64,000 bases of DNA. It comes from an uncultured Eubacteriales bacterium. GTDB taxonomy: Bacteria; Bacillota; Clostridia; Lachnospirales; Lachnospiraceae. The stretch's first letter is position 1; each line of letters begins with the position of its first letter. The position numbers and the translations under genes were made by a program. Below, in pieces: positions 45,542-54,520 of the stretch. A model generated the notes under the pieces. It made no database searches, was not told the origin of the DNA, and saw only the letters and a list, made by a program, of their open reading frames with translations. The stretch is from the NCBI GenBank assembly GCA_951800645.1, contig CATOIK010000001.1, forward strand, positions 186,001-250,000, given 5' to 3'.

Positions 45542-47629
45542 TTACTCATCCTTCTTTGTTTTCACACTCATACTATACCCACACTGCTCATCTGCGCACA
45601 GCAGCCGGTTTCCTTTTTCCACCATATAGCTGCCGCACTTGGGACATTTCTCTACAGACGGTTTCTGCCAGGACATAAAATCACATTCCGGGTTTGCCTC
45701 ACAGCCGTAATAGCGGCGTCCTTTTTTGGTCTTTTTGATCACTACATCCTTGCCGCACTTCGGACAGGCCACGCCGATTTTTTCCAGATAAGGCTTGGTA
45801 TTTTTGCACTCCGGGAATCCTGGACAGGCCAGGAATTTCCCATGAGGGCCGTACTTGATCACCATGTTCCGGCCGCAAATATCGCAGATCACATCGGAAA
45901 CCTCATCTGCAATCTTTACTGACTCCAGGGTCTTCTCTGCCGTTTTTACTGCTTTGTCCAAATCCGGATAGAAATTCTCCACAATGGTTTTCCACCGCAC
46001 GCTTCCGTCTGCCACCTTATCTAAAAGAAGCTCCATATTTGCAGTAAAGCGGGTATCTACAATGCTGGCAAAACAGTTCTTCATAATACCGTTTACTGCC
46101 TCTCCCAGCTCTGTCACATAAAGGTTTTTGTTTTCCTTTGTCACATAGCGGCGGGTCAGAATGGTGGTAATGGTAGGCGCATAGGTACTGGGACGGCCAA
46201 TCCCCTGCTCCTCTAATGCTTTTACCAGAGAGGCCTCCGTATAGTGAGCCGGCGGCTGGGTAAAATGCTGGCTGGGATTTAAAGCGGAAAGCTTCAGCTC
46301 ATCCCCCTTTTCCAGCTTTTCCAGAAGGGTATTGTTTTCTTCCTTCTCATCCTCCTGCACATACACAGACATAAAGCCGTCAAAGGTCAGCCGGGAAGCA
46401 GACAGGGTAAACTCATAATTTCCTACCGCCACCTTTACAGAGGTAGTATCATAAACAGCCGGCTGCATCCGGCTGGCTGCAAACCGTTTCCAGATTAACT
46501 GATATAAACGGAACTGATCCCGCTGCAAAGAATCTTTTACCGTTGCAGGAGTAAGCGTAATGTCTGTGGGACGGATTGCCTCGTGAGCGTCCTGAATCTT
46601 GCCGTTCTGCTTTCCGCCCTGCTCTGCCTTTAACACATACTGCTCGCCGTAGTTGCTGCCAATGTAGGCTCTGGCTACCTGGTCTGCCTCCTCCGCAATT
46701 CGGGTGGAATCCGTACGAAGATAGGTAATAAGACCGATGGTACCGTGGCCTTTTACATCTACGCCCTCGTAAAGCTGCTGGGCCAAACGCATGGTTTTCT
46801 GCGTGGAGAAGTTCAACACCTTGGAAGCTTCCTGCTGCAGGGTACTGGTGGTAAAGGGAATGGGCGGTTTTTTCGTCCGCTTTCCCGGTTTTACATCCGA
46901 TACCACATAAGATTGGCTTTCCAGATCCTTTAAAATAACATCCAACTGTTCCCGGTTCCCAATAGCGATCTTTTCTTCCTTTGTACCGTAAAACTTTGCC
47001 CTCAGCGGCTTTTTGCTGCCTTTCTGCAAAAGCTCGGCTTCCAGACTCCAGTATTCCTCCGGAATAAAGGCGCTGATCTCGTCTTCCCGGTCACAGATCA
47101 TTCTAAGAGCTACAGACTGAACGCGGCCTGCGCTTAAGCCTCGCTTTACCTTGGCCCACAACAGAGGACTGATGCTGTAGCCCACCATCCGGTCCAAAAT
47201 CCGCCGGGTCTGCTGAGCATCCACAAGATTCATATCAATGTCCCGCGGATTTTTCAAGGAAGTCTTCACTGCATTCTTGGTAATCTCATTAAAACTGATG
47301 CGGTAGACTTTTTTATCTTTTAACTCGTCTAATTTAAGCGCTTTCATCAGATGCCAGGAAATAGCTTCTCCCTCCCGGTCCGGGTCCGTTGCCAGATAAA
47401 TCTTATCTGCCTTCTTCACTTCCTTGCGAAGCTTGGCTAAAATGTCTCCTTTGCCACGGATTGTAATATATTTCGGCTCATAGTCATTTTCTACGGAAAT
47501 ACCCATGGTGCTTTTGGGCAGATCCCGGACATGACCGTTGGATGCATCCACTGTATAATTATTTCCCAGAAACTTCCGGATGGTTTTGACTTTTGCAGGG
47601 GACTCCACAATAACTAAACTGTTTGACAT
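45542..47629 (-). CDS. topA: DNA topoisomerase I
   Basis: SNSLVIVESPAKVKTIRKFLG, GRVQSVALRMI, C-terminal zinc fingers. Confidence 0.98.
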   Translation of the reverse strand: MSNSLVIVESPAKVKTIRKFLGNNYTVDASNGHVRDLPKSTMGISVENDYEPKYITIRGKGDILAKLRKEVKKADKIYLATDPDREGEAISWHLMKALKLDELKDKKVYRISFNEITKNAVKTSLKNPRDIDMNLVDAQQTRRILDRMVGYSISPLLWAKVKRGLSAGRVQSVALRMICDREDEISAFIPEEYWSLEAELLQKGSKKPLRAKFYGTKEEKIAIGNREQLDVILKDLESQSYVVSDVKPGKRTKKPPIPFTTSTLQQEASKVLNFSTQKTMRLAQQLYEGVDVKGHGTIGLITYLRTDSTRIAEEADQVARAYIGSNYGEQYVLKAEQGGKQNGKIQDAHEAIRPTDITLTPATVKDSLQRDQFRLYQLIWKRFAASRMQPAVYDTTSVKVAVGNYEFTLSASRLTFDGFMSVYVQEDEKEENNTLLEKLEKGDELKLSALNPSQHFTQPPAHYTEASLVKALEEQGIGRPSTYAPTITTILTRRYVTKENKNLYVTELGEAVNGIMKNCFASIVDTRFTANMELLLDKVADGSVRWKTIVENFYPDLDKAVKTAEKTLESVKIADEVSDVICDICGRNMVIKYGPHGKFLACPGFPECKNTKPYLEKIGVACPKCGKDVVIKKTKKGRRYYGCEANPECDFMSWQKPSVEKCPKCGSYMVEKGNRLLCADEQCGYSMSVKTKKDE

Positions 47630-47650
47630 AACTACTCCTAATCACAGAAA

Positions 47651-48754
47651 TCAGATTTTCTTTCCATAATAGTGATTTCCCGCCCGAAACGCATACCCTC
47701 CCAGCTCCAATTCCAGGAGAATCCCCAGAGTTTCGCTTAAAGGCAAACCGGATTCTTCCAGAATCTGGTCGATATGTTTGGGTTTGAAATCCAAGCAACT
47801 ATACACCATTTTCTCTTTCTTTGCAAGTGTATTTACATTTTTTCCACAGAGAATTAGCTGTTTTTGACATTTGACCCCCAGATATTCTAAAATATCGCCT
47901 GGAGAAACCGCCACATGGGCTCCCTGCTGAATCAGCCAGTTACAGCCTTCGCTTAAATGATCGGTAATTCGTCCGGGGACGGCAAATACCTCCCGTCCTT
48001 GTTCCAATGCCAGCTCTGCCGTAATGAGAGAGCCGCTTTTCTCCCTGGCCTCCACCACTAAAACCGCATCTGCCAAACCACTGATAATCCGGTTCCGCAT
48101 AGGAAAATTCTGAGCCTTCGGTTTCGTTCCCGGCGGAAATTCTGAAATAATCCCGCCGGTTTGCTTCATCTGCTGATACAGCTTAAAATTTGCTGCCGGA
48201 TAACAGATATTTATGCCGCAGCCCAGCACGCCAAAAGTAGGCCGGCCAGCCTTTAAAGCGCCTTTATGGGCTGCTCCGTCAATTCCTGCCGCCAGACCAG
48301 AAAAAATCTGCACTCCTTCTGCTGCCAGTACCCTGGCAAATTCCTCTGCTATCTGTTCTCCATAAAAAGAACAGCCTCTGGCTCCCACTATGGCTACTGC
48401 CGGCCTGTCAGCTTCCGGCAGTCTTCCCTTTACAAACAGCCCCATAGGATAATCATAGATTTCCCGAAGCCGTTCAGGATATACATCGTCGTAAGCAGTG
48501 ACAAACACCGCTGGGTCTTCTCCCATTTCCAGGCTTTCCAGATTCTTCCGGCAAGCCGGAAACTGGGACTGCCAGGCCATCAGCTTTTGTATTTGCCCTT
48601 CCGTCAGGATTCCAGCCGCTCTCAGCTCTGTTTCTTCTATATTAAGTAGAGGTGTATAACTGCCAAAATAAGCGCCCAGGCGCCGGATGGAAACCGCTCC
48701 CAAAAACAAACTGCTTACCAGCCAGTAAAGAACCTCCCGTTCCTGCTTCTCCAT
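47651..48754 (-). CDS. dprA: DNA processing protein DprA
   Basis: VAIVGARGCSFYGEQIAEEFARVLAAEGVQIFSGLAAGIDGAAHKGAL. Confidence 0.96.
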   Translation of the reverse strand: MEKQEREVLYWLVSSLFLGAVSIRRLGAYFGSYTPLLNIEETELRAAGILTEGQIQKLMAWQSQFPACRKNLESLEMGEDPAVFVTAYDDVYPERLREIYDYPMGLFVKGRLPEADRPAVAIVGARGCSFYGEQIAEEFARVLAAEGVQIFSGLAAGIDGAAHKGALKAGRPTFGVLGCGINICYPAANFKLYQQMKQTGGIISEFPPGTKPKAQNFPMRNRIISGLADAVLVVEAREKSGSLITAELALEQGREVFAVPGRITDHLSEGCNWLIQQGAHVAVSPGDILEYLGVKCQKQLILCGKNVNTLAKKEKMVYSCLDFKPKHIDQILEESGLPLSETLGILLELELGGYAFRAGNHYYGKKI

Positions 48755-50344
48755 CTACCGTCCCTCCTTTCCCCAATACTGCTCCTCCAGTTCCCGATAC
48801 CCAACGGCCTCAATCAGATGGTTGCGGCCAATGGTGGTTGCCCCTTCTAAGTCTGCAATGGTTCTGGCTACCCGTAAAATCTTATGACAGCCTCTGGCGC
48901 TCAATCCCATCCTTCCAAAAACCTGCTGTAAAAATGCGTCATCCTTCGGCTGCAGTCTGCAGTACCGGCGAATCTCTCCTTCTCCCATCTCACTGTTAAA
49001 CAAAATCCCGGTTCCGGAAAAGCGGAGAGCCTGAATACTTCTGGCCTCCTCTACCCGCTGCCGGATGTCCTCCGAGGATTCCCCGGCTGCGCCGCTGCGA
49101 ATATCCTGATAACTGACTGCAGCGGCTTCTACGCAGATGTCAATCCGATCCAGCAGAGGGCGGGAGATTTTCCTGAGATACTGGCGCACCTGATGTTCCG
49201 TACAGGAGCAACGATTCTTGTCCGGAAAGTAACCGCAGGGACAAGGGTTCATGGCTGCCGCCAGCATAAAATGAGCCGGGAACTCACAGGCGCCGTAAAC
49301 CCTGGAAATGGTAATCTTCCGGTCTTCCATCGGCTGCCGCAGGATCTCCAATGTCTTTTTCTGAAATTCCGGCAGCTCATCCAAAAAGAGAACGCCTCTG
49401 GAAGCCAGAGAAATCTCTCCAGGCCTGGGCCGCTTCCCGCCTCCAGTCAGGGCCTGGGGGCTGATAGTATGGTGAGGAGAACGAAAAGGCCGGATTTTCA
49501 TCAGCTCTCCCCCATTAGGCAAAAGGCCGCAGATACTATAAACCTGGGAAACCTCTAGCTGCTCCTTTCTGGAAAGCTCCGGCATAATGGTAGGAATCCG
49601 CCTGGCCATCATGCTTTTTCCGCTGCCTGGCGGCCCGATGTATAAAATATTGTGGCGTCCTGCCACGGCCACTTCCGTTGCTCTACGCAGCAGCTTCTGG
49701 CCATGTACCTCAGAAAAATCCACCGAATAACTTATTTTCACATCCGAATCTTCCAGAAAGATTTCTTTCTGAATCTGCTCCGGAGCATTTAACAGCACTG
49801 CCAGTTCCTTCAAATCCCGGATTTTCACTATCTCCACAGTTCTGGCCGCCAGTCCTTCCTTCCCATTCTCCTCTGCCAGAAAGCACCGGCGGATTCCTGC
49901 CTTCCCCAGAACCATCATAAGCGACAGGACGCCTCGTACCGGTTTAATCCGGCCGTCCAGTCCTAATTCTCCCAGAAAAGCTGTATCCTTCAGAATCAGA
50001 GGATTAACAATTCCATAAGCTGCCAGCACTGCCACAGCCACTGCCAGATCCCACCCTGTTCCGTCCTTACGGACATTGGCCGGGGACAGGTTAATGGTCA
50101 CCTTTCTGGATGGAAGCTGAAAACCAGAATTCCGAATGGCAGTGCGTACCCGCTCCTCTGCCTCCTTTACCTCCGAGGCCAGACAGCCTACCATATGAAA
50201 TCCAGGAAGGCCGTTGCTGACATCTGCCTCCACCTCTACCAGATAGCCTTCCATGCCAAGAAGACCTCCGCTGTAAATTTTACTGAACAATAAGAACTCC
50301 TTTCTGCCGCAAAAGCATAGACTTCTGCCAGCCTGATCTGCCAT
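48755..50344 (-). CDS. comM: YifB/ComM family Mg-chelatase-like AAA ATPase
   Basis: YIGPPGSGKSMMARRIPTIMPEL, FRSPHHTISPQALTGGG. Confidence 0.94.
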   Translation of the reverse strand: MADQAGRSLCFCGRKEFLLFSKIYSGGLLGMEGYLVEVEADVSNGLPGFHMVGCLASEVKEAEERVRTAIRNSGFQLPSRKVTINLSPANVRKDGTGWDLAVAVAVLAAYGIVNPLILKDTAFLGELGLDGRIKPVRGVLSLMMVLGKAGIRRCFLAEENGKEGLAARTVEIVKIRDLKELAVLLNAPEQIQKEIFLEDSDVKISYSVDFSEVHGQKLLRRATEVAVAGRHNILYIGPPGSGKSMMARRIPTIMPELSRKEQLEVSQVYSICGLLPNGGELMKIRPFRSPHHTISPQALTGGGKRPRPGEISLASRGVLFLDELPEFQKKTLEILRQPMEDRKITISRVYGACEFPAHFMLAAAMNPCPCGYFPDKNRCSCTEHQVRQYLRKISRPLLDRIDICVEAAAVSYQDIRSGAAGESSEDIRQRVEEARSIQALRFSGTGILFNSEMGEGEIRRYCRLQPKDDAFLQQVFGRMGLSARGCHKILRVARTIADLEGATTIGRNHLIEAVGYRELEEQYWGKEGR

Positions 50345-50496
50345 ATGTTCCTTGTTCTTTTCTATGCCGGAATGATGTACGAACTGTACGAAGAATATTT
50401 CCGAATGCCTAGAGAAAAGATAATTCTACTATACTATCTCAATAAATGAAAGGCAAGCAGAATCTTCTCCTTCTGCCTGCTTTTCCACAAAATCCC

Positions 50497-51252
50497 CTAT
50501 CTGTTCCACTCTGTCATATAAGAACGATACCGCAGCGGAAGATGATTTTTCTGACACGCTTCATTCTCCCGCTCTTTTATGGCAATCGTCTGATGGAAGG
50601 TTTTCCACAGCCGTTCAAACATTTCTTCCTCCTTCTCCTTATGAAGCCGGGTCTGCCATTGGCTTTTCTCCGCCCTTACAATTCCCCAGCCTCCGCCTGC
50701 CCTGTGAACTGCAGCCTTGTTTCTTTTGCAGTCATAAATCATCCAGTTTTCCATAGGCATCCTATCTGCAAAATGAGACGCCATAAGAACCACAAGGTCG
50801 TTTTCCGGCGCAATTTCGGAAAACAGGACTCCCTCCTTTGTCTGAGAAAACCGGGTAAACCCCAGCATATGGTCCAGTTCCCGATTAAGATGACGGTTCA
50901 TGGAAAACACCTCATTGACTGCCGGAATCTGCAGCATATCCATGACTCTGTTCCCGGCCCAAAAGGCATATACTAAAAAACGGTAAAGCTTGTCCGCCCG
51001 GTCCTTCTCCCTGGAAAGGGCCGCCTTATAGGACGCTTCATAAACTTCCTGGGAAATCTTCTTCCTTATGCTGTCTGTCACCTTCCCTGCCTTTTCTGCC
51101 GTGGTTTCCACCTGCCTGTATTCACAGAACAGTTCCCGGTCACAGCCTTCAAATTCCAGACGGACATGGTCATGGCCCAGACGGCTCATCCATGCGTCAT
51201 AAATCCCGCAGAAAATATCTTCCGGCTCTCTGCCGCACACAAATACCGTCAT
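50497..51252 (-). CDS. Probable DNA metabolism protein (TIGR03915 / DUF4130 type)
   Basis: MTVFVCGREPEDIFCGIYDAWMSRLGHDHVRLE... and pairing with the radical SAM gene. Confidence 0.85.
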   Translation of the reverse strand: MTVFVCGREPEDIFCGIYDAWMSRLGHDHVRLEFEGCDRELFCEYRQVETTAEKAGKVTDSIRKKISQEVYEASYKAALSREKDRADKLYRFLVYAFWAGNRVMDMLQIPAVNEVFSMNRHLNRELDHMLGFTRFSQTKEGVLFSEIAPENDLVVLMASHFADRMPMENWMIYDCKRNKAAVHRAGGGWGIVRAEKSQWQTRLHKEKEEEMFERLWKTFHQTIAIKERENEACQKNHLPLRYRSYMTEWNR

Positions 51253-51267
51253 CCGGCTTCCTCCATT

Positions 51268-52683
51268 CTATAAACTTCCTGTTATTACCGCAGCCGCGTC
51301 TTCTCTTGTAACCGGCGCCCAGATTCGGTTATCCTCAAACAGACTCAGTTGGCGGAAACTTTCGTGATATTCTATTTCCCAGGCTTTCCGGCGCTCCTCC
51401 CCCACAAGCTGAGCAGCAATGTAATTTTCTTCTATCTGAAACGGGTACATGGTTTTCCCGGAACAGGTAATAAAATACACAGCCCGCTTTAATACTACTC
51501 CCAGTTTTTTCAAATCTCCAAAATCCAGTCTGGCACTCCGCCTGGCAGCCAGAATTCTCCTGGCTGATTTTACCCCCAGCCCAGGCACCCTGAGAAGGGT
51601 TTTGTAATCTGCCCGGTTAATCTCCACCGGGAACAGTTCCAGATGCCGCAAAGCCCAGTCACACTTAGGATCCAGCAGTACATTAAAATTAGGCCGGTCC
51701 TCTGACAGTAACTCCTCTGCCTGAAATCCGTAAAACCGCAGCAGCCAGTCTGCCTGATACAGCCTGTGTTCCCGCAAAAGAGGCGGCCCTCCCGGCAAAG
51801 CCGGAAGGCTGCTGTCATCATTTACCCGCACAAAGGCAGAGTAAAATACCCGCTTTAAATCATAATTCCGGTAAAGGGCTTCTGCTACCCGAATCATCTG
51901 ATAATCACTTTCCGGCGTAGCTCCCACAATCATCTGGGTACTTTGACCGGCAGGCACAAAGCTCCGCTTCCCGGTTTCTGCTTTTGCTGCATTTCCGGCT
52001 TCACCTCCGGCAACGCCTCTGGTGCCAGAAAAACTGCTTTTTCCATACTCCAGCCGCATCTGATCCTGCTGTACAATCCCACGCTGAACCAGCCTCATAG
52101 GCTGCAGAATCTTCTCTCTGGTTTTTCCCGGCGCCAATCTCCGGAGGCCTTCCGCCGTAGGCAGTTCCAGGTTGGTGCTCATCCGGTCTGCTAAAAACCC
52201 CACCTGCCGGAGCAGTTCCGGATCTGCGCCGGGAATGGCTTTCACATGGATATAACCGTTAAATCCACAGACATTCCTAAGCCGGTAAAGGGTATGGTAA
52301 AGCAGATTCATGGTGTAATCCGGCGAATAAAGAATACCGGAGCTTAAAAACAGGCCTTCAATGTAGTTTCTCCGATAAAATTCCATGGTAAGCGTACAGA
52401 CCTCCTCCGGGGTAAAGGCGGTCCGCACCACATCATTGGAGCGGCGGTTGATACAATACTTACAGTCATAAATACACTGATTGGTAAACAGGATTTTCAG
52501 AAGGGAAATACAACGGCCATCTGCCGAAAAGCTGTGACAGATTCCGCTGGCATAGGTATTTCCCAGCCCATTCTTTTTCCCATTGCGGGAAACCCCGCTG
52601 CTGGTACAGGCCACATCATACTTGGCTGCATCTGATAAAATCTTAAGCTTTTCCTGAATGTCCATAGCCTCCTGAATCAGCAC
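51268..52683 (-). CDS. Putative DNA modification/repair radical SAM protein (TIGR03916 type)
   Basis: LLKILFTNQCIYDCKYCINRR (CxxxCxxC), C-terminal helix-hairpin-helix LLRVPGLGVKSARRILAARR; GTG start at 52683 preceded by GGGGGGAG. Confidence 0.88.
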   Translation of the reverse strand: MLIQEAMDIQEKLKILSDAAKYDVACTSSGVSRNGKKNGLGNTYASGICHSFSADGRCISLLKILFTNQCIYDCKYCINRRSNDVVRTAFTPEEVCTLTMEFYRRNYIEGLFLSSGILYSPDYTMNLLYHTLYRLRNVCGFNGYIHVKAIPGADPELLRQVGFLADRMSTNLELPTAEGLRRLAPGKTREKILQPMRLVQRGIVQQDQMRLEYGKSSFSGTRGVAGGEAGNAAKAETGKRSFVPAGQSTQMIVGATPESDYQMIRVAEALYRNYDLKRVFYSAFVRVNDDSSLPALPGGPPLLREHRLYQADWLLRFYGFQAEELLSEDRPNFNVLLDPKCDWALRHLELFPVEINRADYKTLLRVPGLGVKSARRILAARRSARLDFGDLKKLGVVLKRAVYFITCSGKTMYPFQIEENYIAAQLVGEERRKAWEIEYHESFRQLSLFEDNRIWAPVTREDAAAVITGSL

Positions 52684-52716
52684 CGGTTCTCCCCCCTTCA
52701 AGTTATTGCCAGAACA

Positions 52717-52728
52717 GAACATTTGTTC
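52717..52728. promoter_or_regulatory. Candidate LexA/SOS box, downstream of the -10
   Basis: GAACATTTGTTC; GAAC-N4-GTTC Gram-positive LexA pattern. Confidence 0.75.
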
Positions 52729-52739
52729 TTTCTTGGTTC

Positions 52740-52768
52740 ATTATATCACGCCCAGATTCAAATATCAA
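52740..52768 (-). promoter_or_regulatory. Promoter of the radical SAM/DUF4130 operon
   Basis: Minus strand TTGATA-N17-TATAAT. Confidence 0.75.
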
Positions 52769-52778
52769 GAGCTTTTCC

Positions 52779-52790
52779 GAACATTTGTTC
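52779..52790. promoter_or_regulatory. Candidate LexA/SOS box, upstream of the -35
   Basis: cGAACATTTGTTC, identical to the other box. Confidence 0.75.
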
Positions 52791-52888
52791 TTTTTGTTGG
52801 ACAGGGATATAAAAAGAGGAAGTCTGCACAGCACTCCCTCTGCACAAACTTCCTCTGCTGTCATTCATCATTTTTCAAAACACGAATT

Positions 52889-54520
52889 TTAATCCAGCAC
52901 ATTCCGGATAGCCTTCGGCTTCCGGTAATTCCAGGTGGAAATCTTGATTCCGCTCTTTCTGCTGGCTGCATGGACAATCTGGCCATTTCCAATATACAGG
53001 GCCACATGGTTTACCACGCCGTTGCTGCCAGTGTAGAAAATCAAATCTCCAGGCCGCATCTCGCTGGAGCTGATGGATTTTCCTACCTTAGCCTGCTCTC
53101 TGGAGGTTCTGGGCAGGCTGACGCCGGCCATATTATTCAGAACATACTTTACAAAGCCGGAACAGTCTGCGCCTGTATGAGGGTCGTTTCCGCCCCAGAC
53201 ATACCGGCCGCCTACAAACTGCAGGGCATAATTAACTACTTTGTTCCGCAGGGATGCCTCTCTGTTGGCCTTCTCCTCCAGCGGTGAGAATTTGATTGCT
53301 TCTGTCAGGGCATAGCGAACTTCCACATTATTATCTCTGGTAGAAATATAGGCCTTGTCCTCTGAATCTCCGTCTCCGGCATCCAGTTCAATCTCTACCC
53401 AGCCGTCCAACTGATTAAGCACCGTATAGCGCTCCTCCTTGGAAATCTGGGTCCAGATTTTGGCGTCTGTGTTGGGCTCCGAACGGACATTCAGCATGTC
53501 TGTATTGACAATAGCCGTCAGACTGGCTGCTTCCAGCGCCAGATCCCTGGCCTCCTGGCCGATAGCCACCAAAGTCGAATCTGCCTTTACATAGCCGGTG
53601 ATGGGACCGGACTTAATCTTATACCACCCGTCCAGAGTCTCTAAAATTTCTCCTGCTGCCTGGCTGGGAAATTTACCAATGATGTTGCTGTCATCATCCA
53701 TGTTCATTTCCTTGCGGATGTTTAAATAATTTTTCACCTTGGAAATAATCAGGTTGTCATACTGGTTTAAGGCCATGGTCCGCAAATCCAGTTTCCGGCC
53801 CTCGTTAAGAGCAAGTTGAACGGTTGCATAATCTGCGGAAATATAGCCTTCCTCAATCTGAATCCAGCCGTCTAATTTTTCCAATACCGGATAGCGCTCG
53901 TCCCGCAGAGCCTGTCCCACCACATTTTCGGCTGAATCTGCGTTAGGCTCAGAACGGATATTTAATTTATCATCTGCTTTCACATTGACAATGGCCATCT
54001 CCGTCACATAACCAAGAGCCTTCTGCCGGGCCTCGTCTCCAGTTACCACATAGCGGTTGCTGATGTAGCCCTCCACACCGCCGGAGGTAATATGGCTCCA
54101 GTCCCCCTCGCTTTCTATAATCTCACAGACACTGTTTTCCATCAGGCTGCCGATGATTTTTCCGCTGGTATCCGGAGTCTCGCGAATATTCAAATATCCG
54201 CCGTTTTCCAACTGCACCAGCCCCATATTCTGATAACTGTCTACCACTGCCTGTTTGGCTTCCGCCTCCTGTCTGACCGCTTCTTCCTCCGGAGATAAGC
54301 TGTTTTCCATTTCCCCATTCTCCTCTGTCTGAGAAGATGCGTCTGCCGCAGCCGGTTCGCCGTTTCCGCCGGTCTGCCCCAGCATGCAGGCAATGAACAC
54401 CACTGCGCCGATCAAGGCGGCCAAAGCCACTGCCAGGATGATGTAATTACTGTACGCATTCCGTTTCCGCCGTCTTCTGGCTTTATTCAATATATCAATA
54501 TAATTTTTATCCTCTGCCAT
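52889..54520 (-). CDS. NlpC/P60 (C40) cell-wall hydrolase with multiple SH3b domains
   Basis: GGRYVWGGNDPHTGADCSGFVKYVLNNM, HVALYIGNGQIVHAA; repeated LNIRxEPNxD SH3b motifs; start moved to MAEDKNYIDILNK. Confidence 0.93.
   Translation of the reverse strand: MAEDKNYIDILNKARRRRKRNAYSNYIILAVALAALIGAVVFIACMLGQTGGNGEPAAADASSQTEENGEMENSLSPEEEAVRQEAEAKQAVVDSYQNMGLVQLENGGYLNIRETPDTSGKIIGSLMENSVCEIIESEGDWSHITSGGVEGYISNRYVVTGDEARQKALGYVTEMAIVNVKADDKLNIRSEPNADSAENVVGQALRDERYPVLEKLDGWIQIEEGYISADYATVQLALNEGRKLDLRTMALNQYDNLIISKVKNYLNIRKEMNMDDDSNIIGKFPSQAAGEILETLDGWYKIKSGPITGYVKADSTLVAIGQEARDLALEAASLTAIVNTDMLNVRSEPNTDAKIWTQISKEERYTVLNQLDGWVEIELDAGDGDSEDKAYISTRDNNVEVRYALTEAIKFSPLEEKANREASLRNKVVNYALQFVGGRYVWGGNDPHTGADCSGFVKYVLNNMAGVSLPRTSREQAKVGKSISSSEMRPGDLIFYTGSNGVVNHVALYIGNGQIVHAASRKSGIKISTWNYRKPKAIRNVLD

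Follow-up and report, generated by a model that had tools for sequence, protein, structure and literature searches.

The window, by which we mean the whole analysed 64-kb stretch of DNA of a gut-type bacterium, contains a two-gene operon that we read as an SOS-inducible operon for a radical SAM enzyme that processes DNA lesions, together with its DUF4130 partner (rough probability of the whole explanation, 0.78). The firmest part of this reading is the regulation: the pair is very probably under LexA/SOS control, as the original prediction had proposed from the sequence, and this claim gained support from the conservation of the boxes across relatives and from lineage-specific LexA boxes before orthologues. 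DNA is the probable substrate.

The two copies of GAACATTTGTTC are identical 12-mers whose starts lie 62 bp apart, and they bracket a minus-strand TTGATA-N17-TATAAT promoter that matches the consensus at 11 of 12 positions and was the top sigma-70-like site within 50300-53000 (Table 1). Coordinates and promoter scan thus agree with the arrangement originally described, down to the 10-nt gap between the distal box and the -35 downstream of it (about 10 nt had been claimed). The transcription start would fall a few bases before the proximal box, which would then cover about +6 to +17, in the start region where it had been placed. Because the proximal box spans the first ATG of the radical SAM ORF (52722), that codon is not the real start; since the TIGR03916 alignment begins at ORF residue 22, GTG 52683, preceded by the Shine-Dalgarno-like run GGGGGGAG, or ATG 52665 is the likely one. 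Judged from the predicted hairpins, the operon stands alone, with a 17-pair hairpin separating it from the NlpC/P60 gene and a weaker one behind it. Genes for topA, dprA and a YifB/ComM-type protein lie downstream of the pair on the same strand (window 45542-50344), and a dprA-like ORF was seen near the pair in 13 of 80 near-relative loci.

Table 1. Features of the predicted operon and its control region (positions in the window).
Feature	Position	Strand	Basis or remark
Terminator-like hairpin 3' of the operon	50453..50480	-	hairpin scan; weak T tract
TIGR03915 / DUF4130 partner, 251 aa	50497..51252	-	profile match
Radical SAM protein, TIGR03916 (rSAM_link_UDG), CX3CX2C and C-terminal helix-hairpin-helix	51268..52683	-	profile match, alignment; likely start, see text
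Proximal LexA box (predicted), GAACATTTGTTC	52717..52728	.	palindrome scan
-10 hexamer TATAAT	52740..52745	-	TG one base before (extended -10)
-35 hexamer TTGATA	52763..52768	-	read from sequence
Distal LexA box (predicted), GAACATTTGTTC	52779..52790	.	palindrome scan
Terminator-like hairpin of the upstream NlpC/P60 gene	52815..52856	-	17 pairs

The family assignments proposed for both proteins held in an NCBIfam scan. The first protein matched TIGR03916 with 676 bits (cut-off 343.5) over model positions 1-415 of 415, and the second matched TIGR03915 with 240 bits (cut-off 112). Orthologues of the radical SAM protein share 43-79% identity (n=50), and C64, C68 and C71 of the CX3CX2C motif are invariant across 51 sequences; C20, C43, H44 and C52 are further invariant residues, which might bind a second cluster. 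The C-terminal helix-hairpin-helix fared less evenly: its core motif is strongly conserved in orthologues, but its score of 25.9 bits is just below the Pfam cut-off of 27. The predicted structure (mean pLDDT 83) resembles the barrels of HydE, ThiH and biotin synthase at TM-scores of ~0.3-0.5, and its matches among solved structures were only generic helix-hairpin-helix proteins (ComEA, RuvA) and HydE-type barrels. Neither protein matched the anti-phage defence models of PADLOC.

A partner match was present in 217 of the 236 radical SAM loci collected, most of them beginning shortly downstream of the radical SAM gene. The top PDB matches of its predicted structure (pLDDT 93) were DHH-type phosphoesterases (Foldseek E 1.7e-4, TM-score 0.40), and a kinship with DHH/DHHA1 proteins (RecJ, NrnA, PAP phosphatase) was rejected on this TM-score and on hhalign comparisons with NrnA and RecJ profiles, which were negative. 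The invariant residues of the partner are R134, R164, R228, N230 and E248, with no invariant Asp or His. Nothing convincing was found for it among solved structures; the DHH resemblance of the model is a weak lead, and the low TM-score and the negative profile comparison led us to assign no function to DUF4130 from structure.

Orthologues in other bacterial classes bear on both the regulation and the substrate. The LexA box is GTTC-N7-GTTC in Alphaproteobacteria and CTGT-N8-ACAG in Beta- and Gammaproteobacteria. All 11 alphaproteobacterial plasmid orthologues have a single GTTC-N7-GTTC (or its complement) at most 200 bp upstream, the sole one in the locus, and the one betaproteobacterial orthologue, from Caballeronia, has CTGTATAAATATACAG, of the CTGT-N8-ACAG pattern, 29 bp upstream. 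LexA boxes in three motif dialects before orthologues are hard to explain except by function. A search allowing up to 1 mismatch found no CTAA-N5-TTAG box at the plasmid locus of Bacteroides finegoldii, so this lineage is not confirmed. The TIGR03916/TIGR03915 pair was also seen in a 240-kb record labelled 'Acinetobacter phage MD-2021a' (L374:2989-5051), where its position beside glyQ/glyS suggests bacterial or plasmid DNA as a possible origin of the sequence; the radical SAM gene is also carried by an Acinetobacter plasmid.

In the proteobacterial orthologues the partner is DUF4130 fused to a UdgX-family domain, which has GEQPG in 11 of 12 loci (GEAPG in the remaining one) and the R-loop histidine in 12/12. 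UdgX of the Mycobacterium smegmatis type excises uracil and bonds covalently to the abasic site (PMC10359453), and the fusion thereby suggests that deaminated or abasic lesions may be the context in which the pair acts. We hold this uracil/abasic context to be a tentative suggestion, somewhat against the odds. The partner in the window is DUF4130 alone, without the UdgX-family or any other UDG domain, and no family-4 UDG (UDG_fam4) match was obtained in its genome, which is 83% complete; the uracil link may therefore not apply here.

The same orthologues help to weigh what the enzyme acts on. The pair could be LexA-controlled and have a target other than a DNA lesion, such as tRNA, a component of the nucleotide pool or a protein, the helix-hairpin-helix being a general nucleic-acid anchor. 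The likeness of the barrel to the small-molecule enzymes HydE, ThiH and biotin synthase would suit such a target, as would the presence of non-repair genes in SOS regulons, but we consider it unlikely in view of the helix-hairpin-helix core motif conserved in orthologues, the UdgX fusion of the proteobacterial partner and the three kinds of LexA box. Much less probable is a direct reversal of UV thymine lesions in the manner of spore photoproduct lyase (SplB), which is also a radical SAM enzyme of DNA repair but belongs to a different family. This idea draws on the membership of a radical SAM enzyme in the SOS regulon of anaerobes whose lineage has spore-forming members, and on a former description of DUF4130 with 'SplB-like' radical SAM proteins (PMC3765255). 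Against it, TIGR03916 was the sole NCBIfam match of the protein at E<=0.001, without a match to the spore photoproduct lyase model, and orthologues were found in non-sporulating Alphaproteobacteria and Bacteroidetes. The spore-photoproduct-type damage mentioned in the original prediction, the one argument for which was that both enzymes are radical SAM proteins, was accordingly dropped.

With lesion-bearing DNA as the favoured reading of the substrate, we return to the boxes. Exact GAACATTTGTTC occurs four times in the 2.42-Mb assembly, twice at the operon, once before recA and once before uvrB. The window holds three sites of the Gram-positive LexA box, GAAC-N4-GTTC, compared with 0.83 expected by chance. 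The genome encodes LexA (profile match, 248 bits), and the lexA promoter contains three or more boxes close to the consensus, GAACATTTGTTT, GAACAAAAGTTT and GAACATATGTTA (contig C1, L037:1350-1430), a pattern that suggests multi-operator autoregulation.

Conservation of the boxes was analysed upstream of 236 radical SAM loci (18 from the genus search, 80 from near relatives, 78 from a class sample and 60 from a phylum sample); 17 of the 18 genus entries were used, two being halves of one gene. In one genus member the radical SAM gene is in two frames (G017; L054, L055), through a frameshift or a sequencing error. A perfect GAAC-N4-GTTC was present within 250 bp upstream at 16/17 genus loci and 59/80 near relatives (also 59/80 with a 300-bp region), whereas the runner-up among all 256 gapped palindromes reached 2/17 and 5/80, these counts coming from related loci and hence not being independent trials. 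When one transition was allowed at an outer base, the relaxed box was found at 17/17 genus loci, 78/80 near relatives, 61/78 class-sample and 41/60 phylum-sample loci, whereas no unrelated palindrome exceeded 2, 9, 17 and 8 loci, respectively; the AAAC palindrome also scores high, but solely as a relaxed version of this motif. The box was absent at 17/78 class-sample and 19/60 phylum-sample loci. Strict boxes are concentrated in the promoters, with 76 in the 80 x 250 bp upstream regions and 8 in 520 kb of flanking DNA of the same 80 loci. The occurrence of boxes before homologous operons, which the original prediction had put forward for scanning, is thus well documented. In the class sample the box was present in 58/69 genomes with a strong LexA match compared with 3/9 with a weak or no match (Fisher P = 0.003; the genomes are incomplete and the split, at an E-value of 1e-45, was picked with the scores in view). 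It is highly improbable that the two palindromes serve a different regulator or are repeated by chance, with the operon outside SOS control: short palindromes do arise by chance at the rate given above, but in this genome recA and uvrB are the only other genes preceded by the exact word, the box motif is conserved far above every other palindrome, and Proteobacteria have their own LexA boxes at the locus. The pair occurs in about 40% of the sampled genomes of the class, and this frequency, together with the LexA boxes of local motif in three bacterial groups, points to a core rather than accessory SOS function in many bacteria.

The double operator is itself conserved. Two boxes 46-65 bp apart, mostly 55-62, with promoter-like sequence between them, were kept in 51 of 97 Lachnospiraceae loci, in line with the claim made for the window. 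In two-box loci with a confidently placed -35, this hexamer usually begins 20-22 bp downstream of the box 1 start, and the distance from the -10 to the start of box 2 is mostly 4-15 bp. A second group of loci has boxes about 24-34 bp apart. The recA and uvrB genes of the same genus have single boxes; within the 300 bp searched, a box was missing from some of the upstream regions, chiefly those of uvrB. Two operators would be expected to give tighter repression than one, and the arrangement thus provides a testable prediction. No report of such a two-operator 'sandwich' was found in a limited open-access literature set; the regulation of the pair is known in kind, and the conserved 'sandwich', apparently not reported before, seems to be the new element of the finding.

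We take COG4277 to be the radical SAM/helix-hairpin-helix protein of TIGR03916. A COG1573-COG4277 operon, a UDG base-excision system, has been reported as SOS-regulated in Bacteroidetes, with Verrucomicrobia and Alphaproteobacteria also cited (PMC8565304). It is likewise a two-gene operon with LexA-linked regulation, but its partner has a uracil-DNA glycosylase domain whereas that of the window does not. For Clostridium acetobutylicum, a 2013 study placed such a pair, CAC3343-CAC3344, among its predicted LexA targets, a prediction accompanied by co-expression (PMC3828012); the second gene would be a TIGR03915 member by its position and annotation, and the available part of that paper describes no two-operator arrangement, in contrast to the two boxes seen here. 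The available portions of the Clostridium difficile LexA target table and text do not list the pair. For DUF4130, a role as an enzyme related to mutagenesis, in association with radical SAM proteins and UDGs, was predicted (PMC3765255). The 'undescribed system' of the original prediction therefore has to be given up, both proteins belonging to curated NCBI families and LexA control having been predicted or reported before (PMC3828012, PMC8565304).

We propose the following mechanism. In the undamaged cell, LexA dimers on both operators, one upstream of the -35 and the other over the transcript start, would repress the strong promoter. Once RecA filaments induce the self-cleavage of LexA, both operators would be cleared and the pair made. 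The helix-hairpin-helix would hold the radical SAM protein on DNA, where SAM and a [4Fe-4S] cluster could generate a 5'-deoxyadenosyl radical by which the damaged nucleotide is altered or removed, and DUF4130 might help to find or hold the lesion. A bolder version, which we regard as doubtful, is that the pair represents a new class of radical-SAM repair at deaminated or abasic (possibly protein-crosslinked) sites, coupled in Lachnospiraceae to an unusually tight two-operator LexA lock that is not used for recA and uvrB; such a lock would be explained by the harm that free-radical chemistry would do on undamaged DNA. The SOS link gives a direct route to study the pair, through inducers, a lexA mutant and damaged-DNA substrates.

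Genome-wide, GAAC-N4-GTTC was found at 30 sites compared with 11 for a reversed control pattern, so that a good share of the remaining sites may be chance occurrences; many of the other sites inspected have a GC-rich centre and lie inside genes. The sequence GAACATATGTTC is located ~44 bp upstream of the ORF of a Y-family polymerase gene (impB/mucB/samB; contig C6, L019:26-1610). It also precedes, by ~65 bp, a DUF6731 gene (contig C26, L020:521-1538), which is followed by a second, hydrophobic-looking ORF; these two ORFs, for which PADLOC gave no match, are a possible SOS-controlled pair.
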